DNA of 5,872 bases, taken from Nitrospinota bacterium. GTDB lineage: Bacteria; Nitrospirota; Nitrospiria; Nitrospirales; UBA8639. Where the stretch lies: assembly GCA_022561525.1 (NCBI GenBank), contig JADFRB010000144.1:1-5872 (forward strand), given 5' to 3'. Shown piece by piece: positions 2 to 5,872 of this stretch; position 1 is the first letter of the stretch; each line of letters starts with the position of its first letter. Made by a program: the position numbers and the translations under genes. The notes beneath the pieces were generated by a model that was not told the DNA's origin, searched no databases, and saw only the letters and a program-made list of their open reading frames with translations.

Positions 2-1564
2 TTAACACCCGAGCAGATGCAGGAGAGATTTTTGAAAATTATAACTGCTGTCAACAAGCTTATTATGGATATTGCGCCAAAAGGCTATGGAGAAAAATGG
101 CAAATAAATGTTAAGGATGGTTCTGTTTGTTTTGGAAGTGCCTTCCATAATTGGGCGTTGTCTATCCCGTATATGCAGAAAAAGGGAATTACATTTAAGG
201 AGGTTATAGAAGCTTATAACAGCCAAGACGATAAATATAAAGAGCTTGCGGATAAAGCCCCGTTGCATCAAGTTGTTCTTAACATGGTCATCGGACACTT
301 GCCAGATCCTGTAGATGCGCAGGCCTACAGAATACCAAGAATATGGCATGGTGACTTAGAAAGCGAAGATGGGAGATCATTGATAAAGTGTGACTCAAAA
401 GGACCTTTGTATTTTGTCATAACAAAAATTGTTATTGATCCACAAGCAGGTGAAATTTCCGCTGGAAGGCTATTTTCCGGAACTGTCACTAGAGGAATGA
501 ATGTGTACTTAAACAGAATGAAGCAGCATACAAAAATACAGCAGATTTTCATTTATAACGGAGCGAAAAGAGAAATTGTAGACAATGTTTTGGCTGGAAA
601 TTTTGTAGGGGTGGCAGGAGTAAAGGCATATGCAGGAGAGACAATAACCTTGGATGAGAATGGAACTGCTTTTGAAAAAATAACACACATATTCGATCCT
701 GTTATTACGAAAGCAATAGAAGCCAAGCGTCCAAGCGACTTGCCAAAGCTAATAGAAGTTTTGAGAATGGTTGGAAAAGAAGACCCTACAATAAAGATTG
801 AAATTAATGAAGAGACAGGAGAGCATCTAATGCATGGCATGGGCGAGCTCCATTTAGAGATTATTGTGGATCGGTTGGTTCGAGAATTTAAAGTGCAAGC
901 CAATGTTGGGAAGCCTGAAGTGGCGTACCGTGAGACGATTCGACGAAAAGGTAAAGCAGAAGGAAAATATATTAAACAATCTGGTGGTCGAGGTCAATAT
1001 GGCCACGTGGTGCTAAGTGTTGAGCCGTCAGATGCTGGCGTAGGGCTGGAATTTGTGAATAAAATCGTCGGTGGGATAATACCCAGAGAATATATTCCTG
1101 CAGTGGAAAAAGGGGTGAAGGAACGAATGGAGTCTGGCGTCCTGGCTGGGTATCCCATGCGTGATGTCCGTGTGACGTTATATGATGGCTCCTTTCACGA
1201 GGTAGACTCCAATGAAATGGCATTCAAGATCGCCGGGTCCATGGCCTTTGAGAGTGCCTGTAAAAAATCAGATCCTGCGTTGCTTGAGCCAATCATGAAG
1301 GTGGAGGTGTTGGTCCCTCAGGATTTTATGGGTGATGTGATAGGAGATTTAAATTCTCGGCGAGGGAAAGTTCGTGGGATGCAAGCTCGTGGAGGATCTC
1401 AGGCGGTGGATGCCGCAGTTCCTTTAAGCGAGATGTTTGGGTATTCCACGACTCTTCGATCCAAGACCCAGGGTCGCGCTACCTATTCCATGGAATTTGA
1501 GAAATACGAAGTAGTGCCTAAGCAAATATCAGAGCAGATCATTGGGGCTCAGCGTGGCGAGTAG
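2..1564 (+). CDS. fusA: Chimeric elongation factor: archaeal EF-2 (domains I end-III) joined in frame to bacterial EF-G (domains III end-V), 5' partial
   Basis: This is a translocation GTPase gene, the factor that moves tRNA and mRNA through the ribosome. The frame is open to the left edge: the codons before the ATG at 17 read LTPEQ, which with MQERF forms an archaeal EF-2 motif, so that ATG is internal and about 200 N-terminal residues with the GTP-binding motifs lie outside. Up to about base 840 the protein is archaeal EF-2: EKWQINVKDGSVCFGSA near 98-145, IPRIWHGDLES near 332, and the domain II segment KIVIDPQAGEISAGRLFSGT near 425-485. From about 840 it is bacterial EF-G: VDRLVREFKVQANVGKPEVAYRETI, GGRGQYGHV at 983-1009, the domain IV stretch YPMRDVRVTLYDGSFHEVDS, and domain V with the SKTQGRATYSMEFEKYE ending. 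The bacterial part lacks the archaeal diphthamide-histidine loop in domain IV. Arginine is mostly AGA before the join and mostly CGN after it. Probably not one natural protein; the family call for each half is firm. Confidence 0.9.
   Translation, partial: LTPEQMQERFLKIITAVNKLIMDIAPKGYGEKWQINVKDGSVCFGSAFHNWALSIPYMQKKGITFKEVIEAYNSQDDKYKELADKAPLHQVVLNMVIGHLPDPVDAQAYRIPRIWHGDLESEDGRSLIKCDSKGPLYFVITKIVIDPQAGEISAGRLFSGTVTRGMNVYLNRMKQHTKIQQIFIYNGAKREIVDNVLAGNFVGVAGVKAYAGETITLDENGTAFEKITHIFDPVITKAIEAKRPSDLPKLIEVLRMVGKEDPTIKIEINEETGEHLMHGMGELHLEIIVDRLVREFKVQANVGKPEVAYRETIRRKGKAEGKYIKQSGGRGQYGHVVLSVEPSDAGVGLEFVNKIVGGIIPREYIPAVEKGVKERMESGVLAGYPMRDVRVTLYDGSFHEVDSNEMAFKIAGSMAFESACKKSDPALLEPIMKVEVLVPQDFMGDVIGDLNSRRGKVRGMQARGGSQAVDAAVPLSEMFGYSTTLRSKTQGRATYSMEFEKYEVVPKQISEQIIGAQRGE
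836..868 (+). other. Junction: archaeal EF-2 sequence to bacterial EF-G sequence
   Basis: The switch falls in the codons for GMGELHLEIIV, a domain III motif shared by EF-2 and EF-G. Just upstream, INEETGEHL is typical of archaeal EF-2, where bacterial EF-G usually has a form like EETGQTI. Just downstream, DRLVREFKVQANVGKP is typical of bacterial EF-G. Base composition and arginine codon choice change at the same place. The exact breakpoint cannot be fixed because both parents encode the motif. The frame is kept. Confidence 0.85.
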
Positions 1565-1653
1565 TCGTTGATTAAGAATAACGCATACAAGAATAGAATC
1601 TAGTGGGTGGAAAAATATTTTGTTGGTGTTGCCTGAGAAGAGTCGCATTCATT

Positions 1654-1663
1654 AAGGGAGGGG
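1654..1663 (+). promoter_or_regulatory. Strong ribosome binding site of tuf
   Basis: A purine run, AAGGGAGGGG, ends three bases before the ATG at 1667 and contains a good Shine-Dalgarno match (GGGAGG). It sits at the end of the 102-base spacer after fusA and confirms the chosen tuf start. Nothing else in the spacer could be identified with confidence. Confidence 0.75.
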
Positions 1664-1666
1664 CAG

Positions 1667-2872
1667 ATGGCGAAGGCGAAATTTGATCGGAAGAAGCCGC
1701 ATTTGAATGTGGGGACGATTGGGCATGTGGACCATGGGAAGACGACCCTCACCTCGGCCTTGACGAAGGTGATGGGGGATAAAGGGATGGCCACCTATGT
1801 CTCCTATGATCAAGTGGCCAAAGCGAGTGAATCGCAAGGGCGACGGGATCCGACCAAGATTTTAACCATCGCGATTGCCCATGTGGAATATGAGACCGAG
1901 AATCGGCACTACGCGCATGTGGACTGCCCCGGGCATGCCGACTATGTCAAGAATATGATTACCGGAGCCGCGCAGATGGATGGGGCCATACTCGTGGTTT
2001 CCGCTGCGGATGGGCCGATGCCGCAAACCCGGGAGCATATCCTGCTGGCCCGGCAAGTTGGCGTGCCGTACATCGTGGTGTTCTTGAATAAAGCGGACAA
2101 AGTTGAAGACCCGGAGTTGTTAGAGTTAGTCGAACTCGAAGTGCGTGAGTTGTTGTCGAAGTATCAATTTCCAGGGGATGACATTCCCATTATAACGGGC
2201 TCGGCGATCAAAGCGCTCGAAGGGGACACCAGTGACATTGGGGTGCCCTCGATCCTGAAGCTCTTGGAAGCCGTGGATTCGTATATTCCGATGCCGGAGC
2301 GGGCCATTGACAAACCCTTCCTGATGCCCATTGAAGATGTATTTACGATCAGCGGGCGTGGCACAGTGGTGACCGGTCGGGTCGAACGTGGGAAGGTCAA
2401 GGTGGGGGATGAAATGGAAATTGTTGGATTAGGGGATACGCGGACCACGACGGTGACAGGGGTGGAGATGTTCCGGAAAGTGTTGGATGATGGGCAAGCC
2501 GGGGATAACATTGGGGCCCTGTTGCGGGGGACGAAGAAGGACGAAGTGGAGCGGGGGATGGTGCTCGCCAAGCCGAAGAGTATTACCCCACATACGAAGT
2601 TCAAAGCCGAAGTGTATGTGTTAAACAAGGATGAGGGTGGGCGGCACACGCCGTTTTTCAATGGGTATCGTCCCCAGTTTTATTTTCGGACGACCGACGT
2701 GACGGGCATCGTGAACTTGGCCGAAGGGGTCGAGATGGTGATGCCGGGGGATAATACGACGTTTACGGGAGAGTTGATTGCACCGATTGCGATGGAGAAG
2801 GGGGTGCGGTTTGCGGTGCGGGAAGGTGGCCGCACAGTGGGCGCCGGTGTGGTCACGGAAATCTTAGGGTAA
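1667..2872 (+). CDS. tuf: Elongation factor Tu
   Basis: EF-Tu is the cytoplasmic GTPase that carries aminoacyl-tRNA to the ribosomal A site. The 401-residue protein is complete and close to the usual 393-400. The GTPase domain shows the P-loop GHVDHGKT at residues 19-26, DCPGHADY at 86-93 with the catalytic-type His at 90, NKAD at 141-144 and the SA motif near 179-180. Domains 2 and 3 (roughly 217-401) include the [12 protein letters not shown] barrel segment and the C-terminal end [18 protein letters not shown]. Switch I is unusual: it is about five residues longer than in E. coli EF-Tu and reads [20 protein letters not shown], lacking the common ARGITI arginine-glycine pair. The Mg-coordinating threonine appears kept at residue 67. 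The sequence is clearly bacterial and Nitrospira-like. It is richer in G, with many GGG glycine codons, than the ribosomal genes after it. Confidence 0.98.
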
Positions 2873-2882
2873 TTTGGGTATA

Positions 2883-2888
2883 GGGAGG
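2883..2888 (+). promoter_or_regulatory. Ribosome binding site that sets the rpsJ start at GTG 2896
   Basis: GGGAGG at 2883-2888 lies seven bases before the GTG at 2896, an ideal spacing. It is only one base before the in-frame TTG at 2890, which would be too close. The site therefore favours the GTG start. It sits in the 23-base gap after tuf. Confidence 0.7.
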
Positions 2889-2895
2889 CTTGCGC

Positions 2896-3210
2896 GTGGT
2901 AAGTGGAGATCAACGAATTCGTATCCGGTTAAAAGGTTTTGATTACCGGGTTCTCGATCAGTCGGTGAGGGAGATTGTGGATACTGTCAAGCAAACGGGT
3001 GCAAGGGTGGCGGGGCCCGTTCCTCTTCCAACTCGAATCGAGAAGTTCACGGTTCAGCGCTCTACCCACGCCGATAAAAAATCCAGGGAGCAATTTGAGA
3101 TTCGTACCCATAAGCGGCTGTTGGATATTCTTGAACCAACTCCGGATACCATGGATGCGCTTATGAAATTAAGTCTTGCTGCCGGAGTGGACGTCGAGAT
3201 TAAATTGTAA
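2896..3210 (+). CDS. rpsJ: 30S ribosomal protein S10 (NusE)
   Basis: S10 is a protein of the 30S head and, in bacteria, also acts as NusE with NusB in transcription antitermination. The GTG start gives 104 residues, the normal size; the TTG six bases upstream would add two residues but lies too near the Shine-Dalgarno site. Family marks are [10 protein letters not shown] near residues 9-18, the signature GPVPLPT at 40-46, and the ribosome-inserting loop [20 protein letters not shown] at 47-66 followed by [12 protein letters not shown]. The gene begins 23 bases after tuf with no room for an E. coli-type S10 leader, so it is probably read from the same transcript as tuf and is not controlled by L4 through such a leader. 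The next gene, rplC, starts 49 bases later. Confidence 0.96.
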
Positions 3211-3259
3211 GGCAAGCACCTTTTGGCTATGAGTCTTGCTTGGGTGGGGAAATTGTTTG

Positions 3260-3886
3260 ATGAGTACTAGTTTGTTGGGGAAAAAATTGGGAATGACTCA
3301 GGTCTACGATGCTGACCGTCGTTTATATCCCGTGACCGTTGTCGAGGCTGGGCCTTGTGATGTCACGGCAATTAAGACCTTAGAGCGCGATGGATATCAG
3401 GCGATTCAATTAGGATATCGAGAGGTGAAGGAGCGAAAATTATCCAAAGCGGAAATTGGGCATCTCCGGGCTTCCGGTACTAATAAATTTTGGAAAATTT
3501 TAAAAGAATTTCGTGGACCAACTGAGCATCAAGTTGGTGATACGGTATCCGTTGAGCTGTTTGAAAAAGGTGAAATAGTCCATGTGCAAGGTGTGTCGAA
3601 GGGGAAGGGTTTTCAGGGAGTTATGAAACGACACAATTTTGCTGGTGGACCTGCTTCCCATGGGTCAATGTTTCATCGGGCACCAGGCTCTATGGGTGCC
3701 AGTTCGTATCCTTCGAGGGTATGGAAAGGGAAGAAGCTTCCCGGGCAAATGGGTGCCAAGCGTGTGACTGTGCAAGGTTTGAAAGTTATCGAAGTGCGCC
3801 CAGAGGAAAACCTCTTGTTGATCTCAGGAGCCATTCCCGGTCCTCCCGGTGGGTATGTCATCATTCAAAAGGCTCAGAAAAAGTAA
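3260..3886 (+). CDS. rplC: 50S ribosomal protein L3
   Basis: L3 is an early 23S rRNA-binding protein whose long loop reaches toward the peptidyl transferase centre. The ATG at 3260 gives 208 residues, typical of the family, and starts with the expected [13 protein letters not shown]. An in-frame TTG at 3236 would add eight unrelated residues and is less likely. A purine stretch GGTGGGG at 3243-3249 can serve as ribosome binding site. Core motifs are KGKGFQG from residue 114, [13 protein letters not shown], and the loop [24 protein letters not shown]. The position corresponding, by my alignment, to the PrmB-methylated glutamine of E. coli L3 is alanine (GSMGA), as I recall for many bacteria. 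The gene ends five bases before rplD. Confidence 0.97.
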
Positions 3887-3891
3887 CGTCT

Positions 3892-4515
3892 ATGGCTACT
3901 GTTGATGTGGTGGATACAGCGAAAAATACGGTCGGGTCAATCGATCTGAGTGATTCGGTTTTTGGGGTCCCAATAAAAGGGCCTTTGGTTCATACGGCTG
4001 TGGTTATGCAACGTGCCTCCATTCGTCAGGGAACCGCCAGCACTAAGGGGCGTGGTGAAGTACATGGGAGCGGTAAAAAGCCGTGGAAGCAAAAGCATAC
4101 TGGCCGGGCTCGTGCCGGATCGATACGATCTCCCATTTGGCGCCACGGGGGAACCGTCTTTGGACCTCGGCCCCGCGGATATGATTTTTCCATACCCAAG
4201 AAAATGTATCGAGGCGCAATGCAAAGTGCGCTCTCATCAAAGCAGTCTGATGGTGAATTGACCATACTTTCTGAATTGCCTCTTTCGGAGCCTAAGACGA
4301 AGCAGGTTGCTGCGGCATTAGCCAAGTTTGGTTTGAGTCGCTCGGTCTTGTTAGTGGTAGGTGATGGGAATGTCGGCTTATATCGGGCTGTGCGGAATTT
4401 GAAATACGTGAAGATTGTCAGGCCTAGTGAGTTGACGGTTTACGACGTTCTTCGTTATGAATCGCTTGTTATTTTGAAAGACCAAGTGGAAAAGGTTCAG
4501 GAGTTATGGGCATAA
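3892..4515 (+). CDS. rplD: 50S ribosomal protein L4
   Basis: L4 binds 23S rRNA and sends an extended loop to the wall of the peptide exit tunnel. In some bacteria it also represses its own operon. The ATG at 3892 gives 207 residues, the usual length; the frame is open upstream to 3721, but that part overlaps rplC and is not L4-like. The tunnel loop is plain: KGRGEVHGSGKKPWKQKHTGRAR from residue 52, then GSIRSPIWRHGGTVFGPRPR to about 95. The C-terminal half has the expected Rossmann-like globular domain, with VLLVVGDGN and a final region VYDVLRYESLVILKDQVEKVQELW. No clear Shine-Dalgarno site is seen, so translation is probably coupled to rplC, which stops five bases upstream. Its end overlaps rplW by 10 bases. 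Confidence 0.96.
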   Translation: MATVDVVDTAKNTVGSIDLSDSVFGVPIKGPLVHTAVVMQRASIRQGTASTKGRGEVHGSGKKPWKQKHTGRARAGSIRSPIWRHGGTVFGPRPRGYDFSIPKKMYRGAMQSALSSKQSDGELTILSELPLSEPKTKQVAAALAKFGLSRSVLLVVGDGNVGLYRAVRNLKYVKIVRPSELTVYDVLRYESLVILKDQVEKVQELWA

Positions 4516-4808
4516 AAAAGCGCGATCCTTTTGATATTCTCATTAAGCCTCTTTTGACTGAGAAAATTACCCGTCTTCAGGAGCAGGCCAATCGGATCGC
4601 TTTTGTTGTCAGGAAGGATGCCAGTCGGGTTGAAGTTCGACATGCCGTGGAATCTGTCTTGAAGGTGAAGGTCAAGACGGTGAATGTCATGAATATGATG
4701 GGGAAGAAGAAGCGACAAGGTCGATTTGTGGGGAAACGTGCAGATTGGAAAAAGGCAATTATCACCCTTCGAGAAGGTGAAAAGCTTGACCTCTATGAAA
4801 GTGCATAG
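4506..4808 (+). CDS. rplW: 50S ribosomal protein L23
   Basis: L23 sits at the exit of the nascent-peptide tunnel and is the docking site for trigger factor and SRP. The protein has 100 residues, the normal bacterial size. It shows the N-terminal DILIKPLLTEK motif, whose Glu19 matches the trigger factor-binding glutamate of E. coli L23. It also has VRKDASRVEVRHAVESVLKV, the tunnel loop VMNMMGKKKRQGRFVGKR, and the conserved DWKKAIITLREGEKLDLYE end. The ATG lies inside the last codons of rplD (10-base overlap in a different frame), which points to translational coupling. Purine-rich AAAGG at 4491-4495, ten bases upstream, may assist. rplB follows after 49 bases. Confidence 0.96.
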   Translation: MGIKKRDPFDILIKPLLTEKITRLQEQANRIAFVVRKDASRVEVRHAVESVLKVKVKTVNVMNMMGKKKRQGRFVGKRADWKKAIITLREGEKLDLYESA

Positions 4809-4857: not shown

Positions 4858-5682
4858 ATGCCAGTAAAACCATACAGACCTACATCCCCAGGACGTCGAG
4901 GAATGACTGCCATTGTTGGCGAAAAGCTGTCGTCTGAACGTCCTGAGAAAGGCCTGACGAAAAAGCAGGCTCAGACTGGCGGGCGGAATAACCAAGGTCG
5001 GATTACGGTCCGGTTCCGTGGTGGTGGTCATAAGCGGCTGTATCGGCAAATTGATTTTAAGCGAAATAAATTTAACGTGCCTGCTAAGGTTGCTCGCATT
5101 GAATATGATCCAAATCGGTCTGCGAGGATTGCGTTACTCCATTATGTCGATGGAGAAAAGCGATACATCCTTTCCCCGGTTGGATTGCAAGTTGGGGCCA
5201 TGGTTCAGGCAGGAATTGGTGCTGATATTCAACCGGGAAATGCCCTTCCACTTTCTGCCATGCCGCTGGGGACAACCATTCATAATATTGAGCTCAAACC
5301 AGGCAAGGGTGGGCAATTGGCTCGAAGCGCAGGTGCGTCGGCGCAGGTCATGGGTCGGGAAGGTCATTATATTCAGGTTCGACTGACCTCTGGAGAGATG
5401 AGGCGGATTTTAGGGACTTGCATGGCGACTGTTGGGCAAGTGGGAAATTTGGATCATGAAAAGGTCAACATTGGGAAGGCAGGGCGTTCTCGTTGGCTTG
5501 GGAAAATGCCACACGTCCGAGGCGTGGCGATGAATCCCGTTGACCATCCTCATGGTGGTGGCGAAGGGAAATCCGGTCAAGGGAATCCCCATCCGGTTTC
5601 ACCATGGGGTCTTCCGACCAAGGGTTTCAAGACGCGTAAAAAGAAAAAAGCTTCTTCTCTGTTTCATCTATTAACGAATTAA
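4858..5682 (+). CDS. rplB: 50S ribosomal protein L2 with a replaced C-terminal tail
   Basis: L2 is needed for subunit association and peptidyl transferase activity. The gene starts at ATG 4858 with the expected [24 protein letters not shown] at 4839-4846 is a distant candidate ribosome binding site. The N-terminal RNA-binding fold includes [25 protein letters not shown] and the middle has [18 protein letters not shown]. The catalytic-region motif [24 protein letters not shown] follows, with histidines at residues 230 and 232, of which 230 probably matches E. coli His229. The sequence is normal through [10 protein letters not shown] (residue 267). Then it ends LFHLLTN, where bacterial L2 normally continues with a basic tail of the type KLIxKRRK. 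The total, 274 residues, hides the change because it is near the family norm. The last seven codons belong to the AT-rich right segment, so the native 3' end is missing and rpsS, the expected next gene, is absent. Confidence 0.95.
5650..5661 (+). other. Junction: rplB 3' end to AT-rich, decarboxylase-like DNA
   Basis: The L2 frame is family-like up to the codons for ASS at 5650-5658 and then loses all similarity. From the same point a different frame becomes meaningful ([11 protein letters not shown]). Base composition falls to about 30% GC. The break lies at or next to the short string AAGCTTCTTCT, which includes a HindIII recognition site. Unlike the left join, the two sides are not homologous genes. 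Confidence 0.75.
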
Positions 5683-5872
5683 AGAAAGTTCTAAAACTTA
5701 CAAGAAAAGAAAAGATAGACTACTACAACCAGAGCATGGATGAGAAAGATTATAAAAAAATCATCTCTTTAGGCGTTAAAAACATAACAGTAGACTCAAA
5801 TGAACAGCTTCAATTTGTTAAAGGGAAAGCTTCAATAAGGTTAAAACCAATTAATGTTGATAATGCTTTATT
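5652..5872 (+). CDS. Internal fragment of a putative fold-type III PLP-dependent decarboxylase (ornithine/diaminopimelate type), partial at both ends
   Basis: The frame is open from 5640 to the right edge with no stop; only about 5652 onward looks coding for this family, and no start codon is credible (the ATG at 5736 is internal and has no ribosome binding site). The ~73 visible residues follow the order seen in the barrel domain of ornithine and diaminopimelate decarboxylases. First comes an SxxEL element ([13 protein letters not shown]), then a strand and turn matching the 'I-Y-x-N-x-x-K' type segment ([14 protein letters not shown]). Next is a helix with [13 protein letters not shown], like the 'GV..ivvDS..EL' segment, and then ASIRLKP, like the 'v-lRi-p' strand. 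The PLP lysine and the active-site cysteine region would lie outside the window. Low GC and AGA/AGG arginines match the left archaeal segment. The family is an inference from pattern; the exact substrate cannot be told. Confidence 0.5.

Follow-up and report, generated by a model that had tools for sequence, protein, structure and literature searches.

An archaeal EF-2/EF-G hybrid is present in the sequence of contig C145, and chimeric assembly is, judging from the sequence comparisons, by far its best explanation; the hybrid can almost certainly be discounted as a real gene. Very probably, a piece of EF-2 of the Woesearchaeota type has been joined in this contig to the 3′ end portion of a Nitrospirota-type fusA, which is followed by an ordinary bacterial gene cluster. 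The window analyzed here is this entire contig (5,872 bases), one of 387 in a 2.22 Mb draft genome whose completeness and contamination are estimated at 64.44% and 1.11%. The features of the window are collected in Table 1.

Table 1. Features along the window and the evidence for each of them
Feature	Position	Strand	Basis
Archaeal (Woesearchaeota/Nanoarchaeota-type) EF-2 fragment, from the end of the GTPase-domain region to part of domain III	2..835	+	TIGR00490
Join tract, codons for GMGELHLEI (residues 279-287), with the crossover somewhere inside	836..862	+	Comparison with P0002 and P0121
Nitrospirota-type fusA (EF-G) 3′ part: remaining domain III, domain IV, and C-terminal domain	863..1564	+	TIGR00484, Pfam
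tuf, bacterial EF-Tu, complete frame, downstream of fusA	1667..2872	+	TIGR00485, 708.2 bits
S10-operon genes, bacterial	2890..4808	+	Open frames; order and translation
rplB (ribosomal protein L2), C-terminus apparently lost to a second join	4858..5658	+	TIGR01171, 427.2 bits, profile positions 1-268 of 275
Right end (28.6% GC), not belonging to the ribosomal cluster	5656..5872	+	Open frame 5640-5870

Structure of the hybrid frame

According to the ORF list, the frame at 2-1564 is open over 520 amino acids and begins at the contig edge, with its 5′ end missing. An earlier note, made from the sequence alone, had described it as some 280 residues of archaeal EF-2 followed by some 240 residues of bacterial EF-G, joined in frame at GMGELHLEI, and both the identity counts and the family scans agree with this description. 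In a residue-by-residue comparison with an archaeal (P0002) and a bacterial protein (P0121), residues 1-279 are identical to P0002 at 261 of 279 positions and to P0121 at 71, residues 280-287 at seven and eight of eight positions, respectively, and residues 288-520 at 66 of 233 positions to P0002 versus 232 of 233 to P0121. Any residue from 278 to 286 serves equally well as the best split point between the two. The stretch GMGELHLE (residues 279-286) is the same in both proteins, an identity that holds at the protein level; the relatives' DNA from either side aligns through the join tract with several third-position differences from the window, and the exact parents are not among the DNA compared.

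The family scans gave the same picture. When scanned alone, window 2-835 reaches 388.6 bits with the archaeal EF-2 profile TIGR00490 (profile positions 157-433 of 720) versus 70.9 bits with the EF-G profile TIGR00484, whereas window 848-1561 reaches 380.4 bits with TIGR00484 versus 116.2 bits with TIGR00490. The whole frame of 520 amino acids, being incomplete at its 5′ end, obtains 531.9 bits with TIGR00490 and 482 bits with TIGR00484, which is below the respective cut-offs of 738.45 and 659.4. The shift in composition and arginine codons described earlier was also borne out: GC rises from 38.6% (2-835) to 48.5% (848-1561), and arginine is encoded by AGA/AGG in 9 of 10 cases before the join and by CGN in 16 of 17 cases after it.

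With regard to the domain structure, the rear part of the frame is matched by PF03764 and PF00679, and domain III (PF14492) covers residues 232-304. The earlier idea of a bacterial domain IV on archaeal domains I-III thus holds as far as the archaeal front and the bacterial rear are concerned; it does not hold for the boundaries, as the join falls inside domain III, and little of domain I is present. No match to the GTPase domain (PF00009) was found in the frame at an E-value of 0.1, which follows from the contig starting at position 157 of the archaeal EF-2 profile, so that the corresponding sequence is wanting. Compared with archaeal EF-2 of the Woesearchaeota/Nanoarchaeota type, the frame is thus alike in residues 1-279 and differs in missing most of the GTPase domain (owing to the contig start) and in having a bacterial domain IV and C-terminus. 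Residues 288-520 are bacterial EF-G sequence in place of an archaeal domain IV with its diphthamide loop, a loop that EF-G is not known to have. Compared with the bacterial EF-G of a Nitrospirota-type fusA, the frame is alike in residues 288-520 and in having tuf as its neighbor, and it differs in being archaeal before the join.

Relatives of the two halves

The separate searches of the two halves that had been proposed as a check were performed, and the halves fall in different domains of life. Among the best 120 of 7,050 matches to the front part, the names include Candidatus Woesearchaeota and Nanoarchaeota. The best relative besides the window's own entry is P0002, a full-length, unmixed EF-2 of 729 amino acids that is 94% identical over the front-part query. 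Against named genome contigs, the front part matches metagenome-assembled genomes labelled Nanoarchaeota, "archaeon", and Woesearchaeota, the best of which is a Nanoarchaeota genome at 90%. Among the best 120 of 7,999 matches to the rear part, the relatives are named Nitrospirota or Nitrospira-related, and the best of them, P0121, is a full-length EF-G of 693 amino acids with an ordinary bacterial N-terminal half. From the names of these homologues, we infer that the bacterium is a Nitrospirota.

Together, both searches listed 239 distinct proteins, of which 119 score as archaeal-type in both halves and 119 as bacterial-type in both halves. The window's own protein is the sole mixed one, the other 238 of 238 scoring as unmixed (some of them are partial). 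Furthermore, the bacterial half is matched in the window's genome and in 39 of 39 relatives searched, although some of these matches are weak and may concern paralogues. Three relatives' loci were examined around the join: two belong to genomes of the same genus (G001 and G002) and the third to a genome of the same family, and in each of them the sequence continues upstream through the join as an ordinary EF-G.

Downstream of the join, the gene neighborhood is an ordinary bacterial one. Positions 835-3168 are colinear with G002 at 81.6% identity, and the frames that follow tuf are presumably rpsJ (2890-3210), rplC (3236-3886), rplD (within 3721-4515), and rplW (4506-4808), as named from the standard operon order. 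As a separate observation on tuf, residues 53-70 form a string of 18 residues that is common to six of the eight relatives' loci examined (L015 not among them); of the remaining two loci, one stops before this string and one shifts frame there. Most bacterial EF-Tu proteins have a stretch ending in ERGITIA at the matching place, and the string seems to be a switch I variant that is common across this family. The locus in which tuf appears to shift frame in the switch I region is L013 (G009:C16), where the frame change is perhaps a sequencing error.

Further breaks in the assembly

A second break, absent from the earlier note, lies close to the contig's right end. When 4900-5872 is aligned to G001 and to G002, each alignment stops at window position 5658, which is inside rplB. 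The 217 bases from 5656 onwards have a GC content of 28.6%, and the fragment encoded there weakly resembles a PLP-dependent decarboxylase, as suggested by weak matches to PF02784 (E-value of 3.7e-4; 20.4 bits, under the cut-off of 23.4) and to TIGR01048 (E-value of 0.007). At an E-value of 0.01, a search of the window's own genome and of 39 relatives gave no match to this fragment in any of the relatives. Likewise, it had no match at E-values up to 0.01 in seven archaeal genomes, chosen from 80 loci of EF-2 relatives and searched without a positive control, so that this empty result proves nothing by itself. Of 279 genomes belonging to the archaeal phylum, 12 gave matches, all of them distant (27-37% identity). 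The right end looks like a second misjoin, located in the C-terminus of rplB.

A similar fault was found in a second contig of the same draft genome. Contig C97 carries an EF-G-like paralogue of which only residues 1-162 of 176 match G001 and G002, where the counterparts are frames of 715 and 707 amino acids. The similarity of C97 to the relatives at the DNA level starts at position 1200, inside the EF-G-like gene, and the GC content is 61.1% in positions 1-1150 versus 44.9% from position 1201. The break at about 1150-1200 appears to be a misjoin, with a real insertion at that place being possible. Besides C97, PF00009 is matched on C185, C362, C17, C285, and C315, of which we take C185 to carry TypA and C362 to carry RF3 on the basis of length and similarity.

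Chimeric assembly as the best explanation

Chimeric contigs are a known product of metagenome assembly. Several lines of evidence argue for such an artefact here: the halves place separately, as Woesearchaeota-type EF-2 versus Nitrospirota-type EF-G; full-length unmixed relatives exist for both, and no other mixed protein is found among the 239 listed; the genomes of the same genus run on upstream as ordinary EF-G; the contig breaks again in rplB at 5658, with the GC content falling to 28.6% beyond 5655; C97 shows a like fault; and the draft is fragmentary, with its 387 contigs and low estimated completeness. The window thus presents what is expected of a chimera, namely unmixed parents found elsewhere, a join at a stretch that is shared at the protein level, and what look like other misjoins in the same assembly. 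It resembles chimeric metagenome contigs in having its join at a conserved stretch, in the shift of composition and codons, and in there being more than one break in the assembly, and in sequence it seems to differ from them in no respect. The earlier note had suspected a misassembly, or else an artefactual recombination event at a conserved string, as the likelier origin. This suspicion is thereby strengthened, with the separate placement of the halves, the unmixed parents, the second break, and C97 all pointing in that direction.

The join would have been made at the stretch of nine codons that is conserved between EF-2 and fusA. Preferably, we explain it by a short-read assembler that would have crossed between the two genomes, in frame, at a k-mer common to both. 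The bacterium would then carry an ordinary fusA-tuf-S10 cluster, and the hybrid translocase would not exist.

Alternatively, a polymerase that switched templates while the library was being amplified would have had the same outcome. A physical chimera that arose by template switching in library preparation or whole-genome amplification is a form of the same artefact, and we consider it an unlikely one, though far from negligible. Template switching favors short identical stretches, and in agreement with this the join sits at a conserved stretch; the two breaks in C145 and the one in C97 also speak for it. On the other hand, nothing in the analysis separates it from a k-mer misjoin, and an assembler error needs no special protocol.

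Some observations count against an artefact of either form. The contamination estimate of the bin is low, the DNA of the relatives departs from the window at several third positions of the join tract on each side, and the complementary halves (the missing 5′ half of fusA and the missing 3′ half of EF-2) were searched for on the other contigs of the bin and not found. As the bin is only 64% complete, their absence there is not surprising. The reading frame stays open through the join, as it would in a real gene, but the same would hold for any in-register join of two homologues.

Real recombination and transfer

The open frame, together with the ordinary bacterial genes downstream, is also what favors a real recombination between the domains of life that would have placed an EF-2/EF-G hybrid gene at the fusA locus of the bacterium. 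We nevertheless hold this to be extremely improbable, because an unmixed full-length EF-G exists that is identical in all but one of the residues in the common part, no second mixed protein was listed, the two genomes of the same genus have an ordinary EF-G upstream of the join, and the second break of this contig falls in rplB, which is an essential bacterial gene. Equally little credence is given to the functional counterpart of this reading, in which the end of the bacterial domain III together with domains IV and V would act on an archaeal EF-2 front as a working translocase and replace the EF-G of the bacterium.

The two ends of the contig raise the question of whether the bacterial fusA-tuf-S10 block has really been transferred into the genome of a Woesearchaeota-type archaeon, so as to be bordered by archaeal DNA on either side. 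Both ends are more AT-rich than the middle, the left end is archaeal, and the right end is unmatched in the 39 relatives searched, all of which would suit such a transfer. However, the right end is also unmatched in the seven genomes of EF-2 relatives (searched without a positive control) and has nothing closer than the distant matches in 12 of the 279 genomes, and the block is cut within a gene at each end, so that we regard the transfer as scarcely conceivable. A real gene fusion and an insertion of bacterial DNA into an archaeon are both hard to reconcile with the second break and with the existence of unmixed parents.

Implications

If the hybrid were real, it would mean that the translocase of the ribosome can be built across the divide between archaea and bacteria. 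As the artefact that it almost certainly is, the feature serves as a warning only, and it concerns a genome record with two apparently misjoined contigs (C145 and C97). Misjoined contigs of this kind put false hybrid proteins into databases, as exemplified by P0001, which comes from a contig of 5,872 bases, appears in both search lists, and is the hybrid of this window.
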